A stretch of 64,000 bases of DNA, from the NCBI GenBank assembly GCA_029961055.1, contig JASBVM010000004.1:62001-126000 (forward strand), given 5' to 3'. Positions 33,999 through 39,010 of this stretch are shown here, one piece after another. Made by a program: the position numbers and the translations under genes. The notes beneath the pieces are model-generated. The model worked only from the letters and a program-made list of their open reading frames with translations, searched no databases and was not told the origin of the DNA. This DNA comes from Bacillota bacterium (GTDB lineage Bacteria; Bacillota; Sulfobacillia; JAIMAT01). Each line of letters opens with the position of its first letter. The first letter of the stretch is position 1.

Positions 33999-35078
33999 TT
34001 ATACCGCCTCTTCCCCTGCCGGTGTATAGGTGCAGAGCGGGTCGCTGCCCAGGGGATCGCCGCTGGTCGCCCAGGCCAGCGCCCGCGAACCGCCGCAGAC
34101 GCGGCGGAACTCGCAGCGGCCGCACTTCCCGTGGAAGCCGTCGGGCCTGCGGAGGGCGCGCAGGAGCGGCGCCTCCCGGTAGATCGCCCCCAGCCGCTCC
34201 CGGCGGACGTTCCCGGTCTCCAGCGGCAGGAAGCCGCTGGGGAAGACCTCTCCGCGGTAGGAGACGAAGACGAAGCCGTTGCCGTCCCAGACCGGCAGCG
34301 GGCTCCCCGGCATGCCCCGGCCATGCCGGCCCCCCGCGGCACCCGCGCCATCCGGTCGGGCGCCCGCCTGGGCGCGGATCCGCCGCACCTGCGGGCCCTC
34401 GGTGGAGGTGATGGCGAAGGGGACGCGGCCGCCCAGGTCGACCAGCCAGGCCATCACCCGCTCGTGCTCCTCGGGGGTCAGCTGCTCCACCCCCGAGACC
34501 GCCCGACCGACCGGGATCAGGGTGAAGACCTCCCAGCGGACGGCGCCCAGCTGCCGGACCAGCTCGGCCATCGCGGGCAGCAGGTCCAGGTTGTGGCGGG
34601 TGACCACCGTGTTGATCTGGACGGGCAGGCCCTCCTCCCGCAGCCAGCCGATCCGCTCCAGCGTCAGGTCGAAGGTTCCCGGCACGCCGCGGAAGCGGTC
34701 GTGCACCTCGGCCGTCGGCCCGTCCAGGCTGAATGCCCACTGTTGGAGACCGGCCGCCGCCAGGGCGCGGATGCGCTGGCGGGTGACGCGCGGCGTGGCG
34801 CTGGCCGTCACCGCCACCCCCAGCTTCCTCTCCCGGGCGCGGCGCACGATCTGCTCCAGGTCCTCGCGCATCATCGGGTCGCCCCCGGAGAGGACGAAGA
34901 GCGGCCGCTCCAGCTCGGCCACCTGGTCGACCAGGTCCAACGCCTCCGCGGTGCTCAGTTCCTCGGGGTCCCGCTCCTGCCGGGCGCTCGCCCGGCAGTG
35001 GAGGCAGCCCAGCCCGCAGGCGACGGTGGTCTCCCAGATCACCAGGAAAGGGTAACGATCGAAGTCCCGCGACGGCAT
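33999..35078 (-). CDS. Radical SAM/SPASM domain protein (heme/RiPP-maturase-like)
   Basis: This 359-residue radical SAM enzyme has CGLGCLHC (Cys 21, 25, 28), typical CxxxCxxC, followed by FVLSGGDPMMREDL. The C-terminal SPASM-like cysteines lie in CGRCEFRRVCGG and DPLC. It resembles the TIGR04053/NirJ-like branch. Family members act on peptides or tetrapyrroles; the substrate is not shown here. GGAGGTCG lies seven bases before the ATG. There is no obvious precursor peptide nearby. Confidence 0.88.
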   Translation of the reverse strand: MPSRDFDRYPFLVIWETTVACGLGCLHCRASARQERDPEELSTAEALDLVDQVAELERPLFVLSGGDPMMREDLEQIVRRARERKLGVAVTASATPRVTRQRIRALAAAGLQQWAFSLDGPTAEVHDRFRGVPGTFDLTLERIGWLREEGLPVQINTVVTRHNLDLLPAMAELVRQLGAVRWEVFTLIPVGRAVSGVEQLTPEEHERVMAWLVDLGGRVPFAITSTEGPQVRRIRAQAGARPDGAGAAGGRHGRGMPGSPLPVWDGNGFVFVSYRGEVFPSGFLPLETGNVRRERLGAIYREAPLLRALRRPDGFHGKCGRCEFRRVCGGSRALAWATSGDPLGSDPLCTYTPAGEEAV

Positions 35079-35937: not shown

Positions 35938-35966
35938 TTGACCCGCCGGTCGCGCTCTGATATCCA
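35938..35966 (+). promoter_or_regulatory. Promoter of the c-di-AMP riboswitch operon
   Basis: TTGACC (35938-35943) is 17 bases before TATCCA (35961-35966). The -35 matches in five positions; the -10 is weak. Transcription would begin just before the riboswitch helix at 35994. Confidence 0.55.
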
Positions 35967-35984
35967 TGAGAGGACAATCGAGTT

Positions 35985-36130
35985 ACGCCGGTTCGCCTGA
36001 TCGCCGAATCCCCGGAGACGGGGAGCGGGGGACCCAAGTTCGTGGGGCCAATCGGTTCCGGCAGGAACCGTAGGGCCAGACTCTTCCGGCCCGAGCCCGT
36101 CAGCTAACCTCGCAGGCGTGGGGAGAGGAG
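35985..36130 (+). ncRNA. c-di-AMP riboswitch (ydaO-yuaA class)
   Basis: The sequence contains the highly conserved ydaO blocks in order: ATCGCCGAATCC, GAGCGGGGGACCCAAG, a GGGGCCAATC segment, CCGTAGGGCC, and CCCGTCAGCTAACCTCG. The first helix closes by CGCCTG (35994-35999) pairing with CAGGCG (36113-36118). ydaO riboswitches bind c-di-AMP and usually switch transcription off when it is high. A terminator follows 26 bases later, so the switch acts by transcription attenuation on the opine-dehydrogenase-like gene. Confidence 0.93.
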
Positions 36131-36155
36131 GCGGCCGGGCGCGCTGCGTGCGCGA

Positions 36156-36180
36156 CCCAGGACCCCTCCTGGGCTTTTTT
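36156..36180 (+). terminator. Rho-independent terminator of the riboswitch
   Basis: CCCAGGA-CCCC-TCCTGGG hairpin (7 bp) followed by C and TTTTTT. It lies between the aptamer and the first gene, exactly where an expression platform is expected. Confidence 0.92.
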
Positions 36181-36227
36181 CATGCCCTCAGGACCGGCCT
36201 CGAGATCCGCCGGAAGGGGGGATCGTC

Positions 36228-37352
36228 GTGCGCAGCCCGCAGAACGAGCCGCGCTTCCTCGTGGTGGGCGCGGGAGGCGGGGGGTTGGCCATGGCCGGCC
36301 ACCTCGCCCTGCTCGGCCACCCGGTCATGCTCCTCAACCGCAGTCCCGAAAAGACCGCCGCCGTCGCCGAGCGCGGTGGCATCGAGCTCGAGGGCGCGCT
36401 GGAGGGCTTCGGTCGCCTCCTGGGGGCCGGGACGGATCCGGCATCGCTCCTGGAGGCCGCCGATGTGGTGGTGGTGGTGGTACCGGCCCACGCCCACCGC
36501 GACGTCGCCACCTGGCTGGCTCCCCATCTCCGACCGGGCCATAAGATCCTTCTCCACCCGGGTCGGACGCTGGGTGCCCTCGAGTTCTCGCAGGCGCTCC
36601 ACCGGGCCGGGGCGCCCTCGAATCTCCTGGTCGCCGAGGCGCAGACGCTGCTCTACGCCAGCCGGGTGTCCGGCCCCGCGCGCGTCCGCGTCTTCCAGGT
36701 CAAGCGGGAGGTGCCCCTGGCGGCCATCCCGGCCTGGCGGACGGAGGAAGTGCTCCGCCCGCTGGCGCGGGCCCTGCCCCAGTTCGTGGCCGCCCCCGAC
36801 GTGCTCACCACCTCTCTCGGCAACATCGGCGCCATCTTCCACCCGGCGCCGACCCTGCTCAACATGGCCCGGATCGAGGCGGGAGAGCTCTTCGAGTACT
36901 ACCGCCAGGGCATCTCGCCGGCGGTGGCGCGGGTTCTGGAGGCTCTGGACGAGGAGCGGCTGGCCGTGGGCCGCGCGTTGGGCGTGCCCGTGCAGAGCGC
37001 CCGGGGGTGGCTGGAGGAGGCGTACGGCGCCGCCGGGGAGGACCTGTACGCGGCCATCCAGAGCAACCCCGCCTATGAGGGGATCGTTTCGCCGAGCACG
37101 CTGGCCAACCGCTATCTCTACGAGGACGTGCCGACGGGTCTCGTACCGATGGCCTCGCTGGGACGGTCGCTGGGGGTCTGCACGCCCCTGATGGACGCGC
37201 TGATCGGGCTCGCCTCCCGCGTGGTCGGGACCGATCTCCGGGCGCGCGGCCGCACGTTGGAGAACCTGGGCTTCGACGGCTTCAGCGGCGAGCAGCTGAT
37301 CCGTTACGTCCGCGAAGGAGGGGTCCGCTCATGGCGTCCCATGCCGGTCTGA
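36228..37352 (+). CDS. NAD/NADP octopine/nopaline (opine) dehydrogenase family protein
   Basis: This 374-residue protein has an N-terminal Rossmann domain (VVGAGGGGLAMAGHLALLG, residues 12-30) and a C-terminal opine dehydrogenase domain with catalytic-type His205 in SLGNIGAIFHPAPTLLN. Family enzymes reductively condense an amino acid with a keto acid. The GTG start follows GGAAGGGGGG. It is the first gene after a c-di-AMP riboswitch and terminator, and its last 22 bases overlap a B12-binding protein gene. Substrate unknown. Confidence 0.9.
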   Translation: MRSPQNEPRFLVVGAGGGGLAMAGHLALLGHPVMLLNRSPEKTAAVAERGGIELEGALEGFGRLLGAGTDPASLLEAADVVVVVVPAHAHRDVATWLAPHLRPGHKILLHPGRTLGALEFSQALHRAGAPSNLLVAEAQTLLYASRVSGPARVRVFQVKREVPLAAIPAWRTEEVLRPLARALPQFVAAPDVLTTSLGNIGAIFHPAPTLLNMARIEAGELFEYYRQGISPAVARVLEALDEERLAVGRALGVPVQSARGWLEEAYGAAGEDLYAAIQSNPAYEGIVSPSTLANRYLYEDVPTGLVPMASLGRSLGVCTPLMDALIGLASRVVGTDLRARGRTLENLGFDGFSGEQLIRYVREGGVRSWRPMPV

Positions 37353-39010
37353 AGCAGCCGCTGGTGATGGCGGGTGCCGTCGGCGACTGCGTCCACGTGG
37401 TGGGCGTCAGCCGCTTCCTGCGCCTCGCCGGGGAGGCGGGCTACCGCACGATCTTCCTCGGCCCCGCCGTCGATCCGGTCGACTTCGCCCGCGCCGTCGA
37501 GCGCGAGCGCCCCGACCTGGTCGGCGTCAGCTACCGGTTGACGCCGGAGGCGGCGGGGAGGGTGCTGGAACTCTTCGGTCGCGAACTGGAAGCGCGCCTG
37601 GCCAAGACGGGTTGGCGGCCCCGCCTGGTCTTCGGCGGCACGCCGCCCGTCGCCCGGGTCGCGGCCCGGAGCGGCCTCTTCGAGGCGGTCTTCGACGGCA
37701 CCGAAGGCGACGAGGCGGTCCTGGCCTGGCTCCGTGGGCGACCGCTGGAGGCGGCGCCCACCGCCTACCCGGAGACGCTGGTCGAGCGGGTCCGCGCCCA
37801 GGCGCCGTTCCCGCTCATCCGCCACCACTACGGGCGCCCTTCCTACCGGGAGACGCTGGAGGGCGTGGCCGCCATCGCCGAGTCGCGGGCGGTGGACGTC
37901 ATCTCGTTGGGCGTCGACCAGAACACCCAGGAGCACTTCTTCCACCCGGAGGAGCGGGACCCCCGCCAGGAAGGTGCAGGGGGCGTCCCCGTCCACAGCC
38001 CCGAGGAGTTCCGGGCGCTCTACCAGGCTTCGCGGCGGGGCAACTTCCCGCTGATGCGCTCCTACAGCGGGACGCGGGACATCCTCCGCATGGCCGAGGT
38101 CCTGCGCGAGACCATTCACCTCGCCTGGGGAGCGGTCCCGCTCACCTGGTACAGCGTCCTGGACGGTCGCAGCCGGCGGTCGCTGGAGGAGACGATCCGG
38201 GAGGCGCAGGCGGCCTTCGCCTGGCACGGGGCGCACGGCATCCCCCTGGAGTCCAACGAGGCGCACCACTGGAGCCTTCGCGACGCCCCGGACAGCGTCG
38301 CCGTGGCCATGGCCTTCCTGGCGGCGTACAACGCGCGGGCGGCGGGGGTCCGCACCTACGTGGCCCAGTTCATGTTCAACACGCCGCCGGGCACCTCGTT
38401 CACCATGGACCTGGCCAAGATGCTGGCCAAGGCGGAGCTGATCGAGTCGCTGGAGGGCGACGGCTTCACCGTCCTGCGCGAGACGCGGGCAGGGCTGACC
38501 AGCATGCCGGCCGACCTCGACGCGGCGCGCGGCCACCTGGGCGCCACCACCCTCCTGCAGATGGCGCTCCGGCCGCAGATCGTCCATGTGGTGGCGCCGG
38601 TGGAGGCCGACCACGCGGCCACGGCGCGGGACGTGATCGAGGCCGCGCGCCTCGCCCGGGGCGTGATCCGGGACGCGCTGGACGGCCTGCCGGCCATGGC
38701 GGTCGACCCCAACGTGCAGGCCAGGCGCGACGAGCTGGTTCAGGAAGCCATGATCCTTCTGGAGGCGATCCGCTCCGTCGCCGACCCGGGCGTGGCCGAT
38801 CCCTGGGCGGACGCCACCACCCTCGCCCGAGCCGTCCACGTCGGGCTGATCGACGCGCCCCAGCTGCGGGGGAATCCCGAGGCGCGGGGCGAGGTGGTCA
38901 CCCGCCTCGTCGACGGCGCCTGCCGGGCGGTGGACCCGGAGACGGGCGAGCCGCTGAGCGAGAGCGAGCGGGTCCGAAGGCTCCTGGACCAGGCGCTGCG
39001 CGCCGTCTGA
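37331..39010 (+). CDS. Cobalamin (B12)-binding, mutase-like protein
   Basis: The 559-residue protein has a Rossmann-type B12-binding domain in the first 140 residues (GDCVHVVGV with D19, H22, G25; SYRL; LVFGG) and a long TIM-barrel-like domain resembling adenosylcobalamin mutases. The first motif is spaced DxxHxxG rather than the usual DxHxxG, so axial His ligation is not certain. Conserved-looking barrel stretches are ISLGVDQNTQEHFF, LPLTWYSVLDGR-like and QFMFNTPPGTSFTMDLAKM. GAAGGAGGGG precedes the ATG, which overlaps the opine dehydrogenase gene. It is probably the second enzyme of the same c-di-AMP-controlled pathway. Confidence 0.8.
   Translation: MASHAGLKQPLVMAGAVGDCVHVVGVSRFLRLAGEAGYRTIFLGPAVDPVDFARAVERERPDLVGVSYRLTPEAAGRVLELFGRELEARLAKTGWRPRLVFGGTPPVARVAARSGLFEAVFDGTEGDEAVLAWLRGRPLEAAPTAYPETLVERVRAQAPFPLIRHHYGRPSYRETLEGVAAIAESRAVDVISLGVDQNTQEHFFHPEERDPRQEGAGGVPVHSPEEFRALYQASRRGNFPLMRSYSGTRDILRMAEVLRETIHLAWGAVPLTWYSVLDGRSRRSLEETIREAQAAFAWHGAHGIPLESNEAHHWSLRDAPDSVAVAMAFLAAYNARAAGVRTYVAQFMFNTPPGTSFTMDLAKMLAKAELIESLEGDGFTVLRETRAGLTSMPADLDAARGHLGATTLLQMALRPQIVHVVAPVEADHAATARDVIEAARLARGVIRDALDGLPAMAVDPNVQARRDELVQEAMILLEAIRSVADPGVADPWADATTLARAVHVGLIDAPQLRGNPEARGEVVTRLVDGACRAVDPETGEPLSESERVRRLLDQALRAV

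Follow-up and report, generated by a model that had tools for sequence, protein, structure and literature searches.

A c-di-AMP riboswitch upstream of an opine-dehydrogenase-like gene and a fused B12-dependent mutase-like gene in Bacillota: a candidate osmolyte pathway

The nearest described parallel in regulation to the locus reported here is the tandem Na+-I/c-di-AMP riboswitch of Dehalobacter, which controls ablA, for the osmolyte precursor beta-lysine, and terminates transcription on c-di-AMP (PMC9337991). Riboswitches of the ydaO type are also known near cell-wall genes (PMC7288161). The two enzymes at our locus have nearest relatives of their own: N-(1-D-carboxylethyl)-L-norvaline dehydrogenase (CENDH; PDB 1bg6, PF02317) for the one, and glutamate mutase (GlmS and GlmE, PF06368, with GlmL) for the other. 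As in the ablA case, which is an OFF switch for an osmolyte precursor, a c-di-AMP aptamer and a terminator here stand before a mutase gene; however, the Dehalobacter system includes no opine dehydrogenase, and the leader in our window (the whole stretch of 64,000 nucleotides that was analysed, from a Bacillota genome) carries no match to a Na+ aptamer. The enzymes differ as well, lysine 2,3-aminomutase being a radical-SAM/PLP enzyme and not a B12 enzyme.

The riboswitch leader and the opine dehydrogenase gene

The original prediction had placed a near-perfect ydaO aptamer, with a promoter and a terminator, in front of two overlapping genes. A covariance-model search bears out the aptamer, RF00379 matching the window over its full length (E 3.9e-21) at 94.9 bits against a gathering score of 38 bits, and the two genes do overlap, by 22 nt. 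This aptamer is the only ydaO match in the whole 2.28 Mb assembly (96% complete), which encodes one diadenylate cyclase domain, and its core is conserved across an alignment with eight homologous leaders. The features of the locus are these:

35938-35966, + strand: possible sigma-70 promoter, TTGACC-N17-TATCCA (weak, 8/12 by hand count)
35992-36132, + strand: c-di-AMP (ydaO) riboswitch aptamer (RF00379, positions 1-134 of 134)
36118-36134, + strand: predicted antiterminator strand (minimum-energy fold)
36156-36181, + strand: intrinsic terminator, hairpin at 36156-36173 and T run to 36181 (pattern scan)
36228-37352, + strand: opine dehydrogenase, CENDH-like (PF02317), GTG start (Pfam and structure-database match)
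37331-39010, + strand: fused adenosylcobalamin-dependent mutase-like protein (PF02310, AF2 model, Foldseek, hhalign to GlmE)
37364-37720, + strand: its B12-binding domain, aa 12-130, motif C-V-H22-V-x-G25 (PF02310 and alignment)
37778-38611, + strand: its TIM-barrel-like catalytic domain, aa 150-427 (model secondary structure and fold match)

The predicted terminator has its counterpart in a terminator-like hairpin, CCCAGGA-CCCC-TCCTGGG, ahead of the T run; about 0.9 chance sites are expected from such a scan over 3.6 kb, so that where the hairpin lies tells more than its mere presence. For the promoter the outcome was poorer, the candidate being weak and a consensus scan of the leader listing no site at its threshold. 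In the minimum-energy prediction the antiterminator strand begins within the 3' end of the aptamer and pairs with the loop and 3' side of the terminator, so that the two structures would be mutually exclusive; the fold of 36110-36186 is predicted at -42.9 kcal/mol (z -2.8). Terminator and overlapping antiterminator together form a predicted expression platform able to switch, as a transcriptional OFF switch would require. Immediately ahead of this region the other strand (33999-35078, -) carries a gene for a radical SAM/SPASM protein (TIGR04053, 434.8 bits against a cut-off of 395).

The first gene behind the leader had been read as an opine dehydrogenase, and the family assignment holds: its product matches Octopine_DH PF02317 with an E value of 6.2e-49 (166 bits) as well as N-terminal NAD-binding families, and its nearest solved relative is 1bg6, CENDH itself (E 6.8e-80). 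Homology to CENDH extends over the full length (profile E 4.3e-120), with His205 and Asp300 of the C-terminal domain conserved. Judging by these matches the protein is of the opine-dehydrogenase family, with a Rossmann domain and an Octopine_DH helical domain. It differs from CENDH in that, in its branch, a B12 mutase gene almost always lies alongside; its substrate class is predicted. Opine dehydrogenases make metallophores of the staphylopine type, and synthesis of such a compound is one conceivable role for the pair; the metallophore enzymes, however, belong to another Pfam family, and the clustered neighbours of the pair include no recurrent exporter or metal-uptake gene; this role is very improbable.

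A fused relative of glutamate mutase

The second protein had been called cobalamin-dependent and mutase-like, a class now supported by both fold and profile. In Pfam it matches only an N-terminal B12-binding domain, PF02310, and no Pfam or NCBIfam model matches the protein end to end. An AlphaFold (AF2) model built from a 27-member alignment (mean pLDDT 90) was compared with the PDB by Foldseek, and B12 mutases and aminomutases fill the first 20 places, led by glutamate mutase subunit E (6h9e_B, E 8.6e-17, TM 0.65 by target length) and followed by 1cb7_B, also glutamate mutase, and then by ornithine and lysine aminomutases. The hhalign comparison with GlmE gives a collinear match of 374 columns (E 1e-5, probability 82%). 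On the strength of the Foldseek ranking and this collinear alignment, the protein is a B12 domain and a barrel mutase in a single chain, distantly related to glutamate mutase and of predicted activity.

The resemblance to glutamate mutase also includes the invariant His and Gly of the DxHxxG region (His22 and Gly25, 27 of 27 in the alignment), and GlmL genes lie beside or fused to some members of the branch. The differences are nevertheless considerable. The S and E parts form one chain here, Cys stands where DxHxxG has Asp in 25 of the 27 sequences, the Asp being kept in two, and the glutamate-binding set is not kept: for the residues that we take, in role and numbering, to bind glutamate in GlmE (Arg66, Arg100, Arg149 and Glu171) the profile alignment offers no equivalents, placement being uncertain at such a distance. 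This difference implies a substrate other than glutamate. Seven residues that lie in the barrel or ahead of it, R153, R164, H165, H166, R243, R280 and R317, are invariant across the 27 members, a set that suggests a carboxylate-rich substrate. The possibility that the protein is simply a glutamate mutase was considered and rejected, since PF06368 finds no match in its own genome, pairwise BLASTP to true GlmE is not significant and the binding residues differ. Some of its homologues just pass the PF06368 cut-off, at 26.7-32.1 bits, and others fail it. The widespread branch to which the protein belongs has no name of its own and represents the glutamate-mutase fold in fused form.

The missing glutamate-binding residues bear as well on a role in amino-acid or redox balancing, in which the pair, as K+ and turgor change, would remove or replenish NAD(P)H or anions resembling glutamate, with no dedicated solute. 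Opine dehydrogenases can act as fermentative redox sinks, c-di-AMP tracks K+, and the named carriers of the pair look largely anaerobic or thermophilic, judged by title. For such a role, however, a costly B12 mutase and the ATP-dependent ligases described below would be unnecessary, and the differing GlmE residues also speak against it; we think it unlikely.

Recurrence of the pair and its neighbours

A phylum sample of 299 genomes contained a mutase match in 62 and a dehydrogenase match in 79. The dehydrogenase gene adjoins the mutase gene on the same strand in 57 of the 58 genomes with a near-full mutase, and in 56 the two lie no more than 200 bp apart. The arrangement proposed for this one leader is found elsewhere too: when 60 genomes were searched with RF00379, an aptamer lay 9-1324 nt upstream of the dehydrogenase gene in 29 genomes from 16 families. 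Such linked aptamers make up 30 of the 78 ydaO matches above cut-off in the genomes searched, and in 10 genomes the linked aptamer is the sole ydaO match; with random placement expected to yield well below one case, the association of aptamer and pair recurs far above chance. In one genome (G274) the dehydrogenase and mutase genes are far apart, yet an aptamer stands 135 nt upstream of the former. In another (G045; L045:7568-7851), two tandem ydaO core motifs, both scoring as aptamers, precede the dehydrogenase gene. Aptamer and pair occur together also in MAGs labelled Symbiobacterium thermophilum, Thermosediminibacteraceae and Candidatus Fermentithermobacillaceae. Of the sampled Bacillota genomes that carry the pair, half have no aptamer beside it, and outside Bacillota, the Chloroflexota and Bacteroidota loci included, the pair showed no aptamer motif.

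Relatives in the genome collection number at least 574, the best 80 of which, by record title, come also from Chloroflexota, Bacteroidota, Ignavibacteria, Bipolaricaulota and Armatimonadetes; the cultured strain Bellilinea caldifistulae is among the pair carriers. The order mutase then dehydrogenase, the reverse of that in the window, is seen at 51 of 71 named loci, mostly of Chloroflexota, and the keeping of adjacency in both orders supports a single pathway. Protein distances of the two partners are correlated (Mantel 0.51, against 0.16 for the best of 999 permutations). Chloroflexota pair loci (L103, L108, L115, L140, L148, L150 and L154) often encode, in addition, a DUF2179/DUF5698 protein and proteins resembling Na+/Ca2+ antiporters.

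Genes in the same run as the pair were counted at 125 distinct loci. An AsnB-type (asparagine-synthetase-like) gene shares the operon at 18 of these, a D-Ala-D-Ala-ligase-like ATP-grasp gene at nine and the GlmL accessory gene at four. At three loci (L061, L073 and L093) the aptamer is followed by ATP-grasp, dehydrogenase and mutase genes in one run. Mutase and GlmL are fused into a single chain of about 1,220 aa at L032:1739-5383 and L033:4306-8007, beside a divergent opine dehydrogenase, and these fusions support GlmL as a helper of the mutase branch. As a general requirement GlmL was rejected: none was found in the source genome, and GlmL elsewhere in a genome may serve a canonical GlmE. 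The source genome likewise has only distant matches, and no close homologue, to the ATP-grasp and AsnB-type partners.

Among the 23 AsnB-type genes listed, seven replace the glutaminase Cys2 by Ser, Ala or Ile, with the SGGLDSS loop kept:

L165:8679-10028, Cys2-less AsnB-like gene
L158:4964-6304, Cys2-less AsnB-like gene
L166:5293-6624, Cys2-less AsnB-like gene
L131:9842-11170, Cys2-less AsnB-like gene
L112:4476-5846, Cys2-less AsnB-like gene
L115:9869-11230, Cys2-less AsnB-like gene
L089:8709-10325, Cys2-less AsnB-like gene

Having lost Cys2 and kept the ATP loop, these enzymes are not expected to use glutamine as AsnB enzymes normally do, and on this evidence they may ligate or cyclise. The AsnB family includes ligases and cyclases of just this make-up, and the beta-lactam and carbapenam synthetases are AsnB homologues that act on carboxyalkyl amino acids. 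The Cys-less partners, putative ligases or cyclases, resemble these synthetases in keeping the ATP loop without the glutaminase nucleophile; the genome that the window comes from yielded no close homologue.

These neighbours bring in the main rival explanation, a cell-wall route, in which peptidoglycan or another wall polymer would take up an uncommon amino acid, or an N-carboxyalkyl amino acid, made by the pair at low c-di-AMP. The D-Ala-D-Ala-ligase-like genes that share the operon are divergent members of their family, MurD (by NCBIfam cut-off) adjoins the pair at L042 and has a homologue at L038, and the association of ydaO with wall genes was mentioned above. Against this, MurD is confined to those two loci, those ATP-grasp ligases that were tested fall short of the Ddl cut-offs, the commoner AsnB-type partners do not point to the wall, and Chloroflexota and Bacteroidota, whose envelopes are very different, carry the pair too; we consider a wall role rather unlikely.

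Some mutase-less homologues of the dehydrogenase in Bacillota (L216:3357-6718, and similarly L217-L219) lie between an RpiR-type regulator and a membrane-protein-like ORF of 446-455 aa, which at L216 has no NCBIfam match, and possibly represent a separate use of opines. Together with the CENDH relatives, which act on opines judging by enzyme name, they lend something to the idea that the pair catabolises an external opine or amino acid. No importer recurs among the clustered neighbours at the 125 loci, however, and c-di-AMP switches do not sense nutrients, so that catabolism appears improbable.

A proposed compatible-solute pathway

The reading we prefer, to which we give a probability of about one half, is that the pair makes an amino-acid-derived compatible solute from an operon that is on at low c-di-AMP; it starts from the observed RNA, gene pairing, recurrence and fold class, and from these we infer in which direction the switch works, what the two enzymes do and in which order, and that the product serves as an osmolyte. 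With c-di-AMP bound to the leader, transcription would stop at 36156-36181; as c-di-AMP falls, in a hyperosmotic or low-turgor state, the antiterminator would form and the operon would be made. The dehydrogenase would then condense a 2-keto acid reductively with an amino acid, using NAD(P)H, and the adenosylcobalamin-dependent carbon-skeleton mutase would rearrange either the amino acid before this step or the opine after it, both orders being possible. In some lineages the product might next be amidated, cyclised or ligated by an AsnB-type enzyme or ATP-grasp ligase, and amidation or ligation would lower its net charge. The end product would accumulate as a compatible solute.

The results are compatible with the original suggestion of an osmolyte made by condensing a rearranged amino acid with a keto acid. 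The proposed regulatory logic is paralleled by the Dehalobacter switch for beta-lysine, which counts for the solute reading, and the ATP-dependent ligases beside the pair in other genomes add to it. There are also points against it: an opine is anionic and, if not amidated, less usual as a compatible solute; the MurD and D-Ala-D-Ala-ligase-like neighbours would suit a wall precursor too; the aptamer is missing from half of the sampled Bacillota pairs and from the Chloroflexota and Bacteroidota loci; and the source genome yielded neither GlmL nor close versions of the ligases. More tentative is the wider proposal that the new B12-mutase branch and the opine dehydrogenase, joined in many lineages by an ATP-dependent amidating, cyclising or ligating enzyme, make a new class of opine-derived compatible solutes in several phyla and are wired to c-di-AMP in Bacillota.

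In the open-access literature we found no paper tying an opine or octopine dehydrogenase to ydaO or c-di-AMP, to glutamate mutase, to cobalamin-binding or to a compatible solute, a scope outside which the main ydaO target surveys lie, so that an earlier listing is possible; nor did that literature yield a paper joining a c-di-AMP riboswitch with a mutase, cobalamin and the osmotic response.

Riboswitches for c-di-AMP flag genes needed at falling turgor, and here they flag a two-enzyme pathway found in several phyla. The two enzymes, which occur together in hundreds of bacteria, probably use vitamin B12 to make a small protective molecule. If that molecule is indeed a compatible solute, a B12-dependent class would be added to osmolyte chemistry, and a function would be assigned to a branch of the glutamate-mutase fold that is widespread but has no name.
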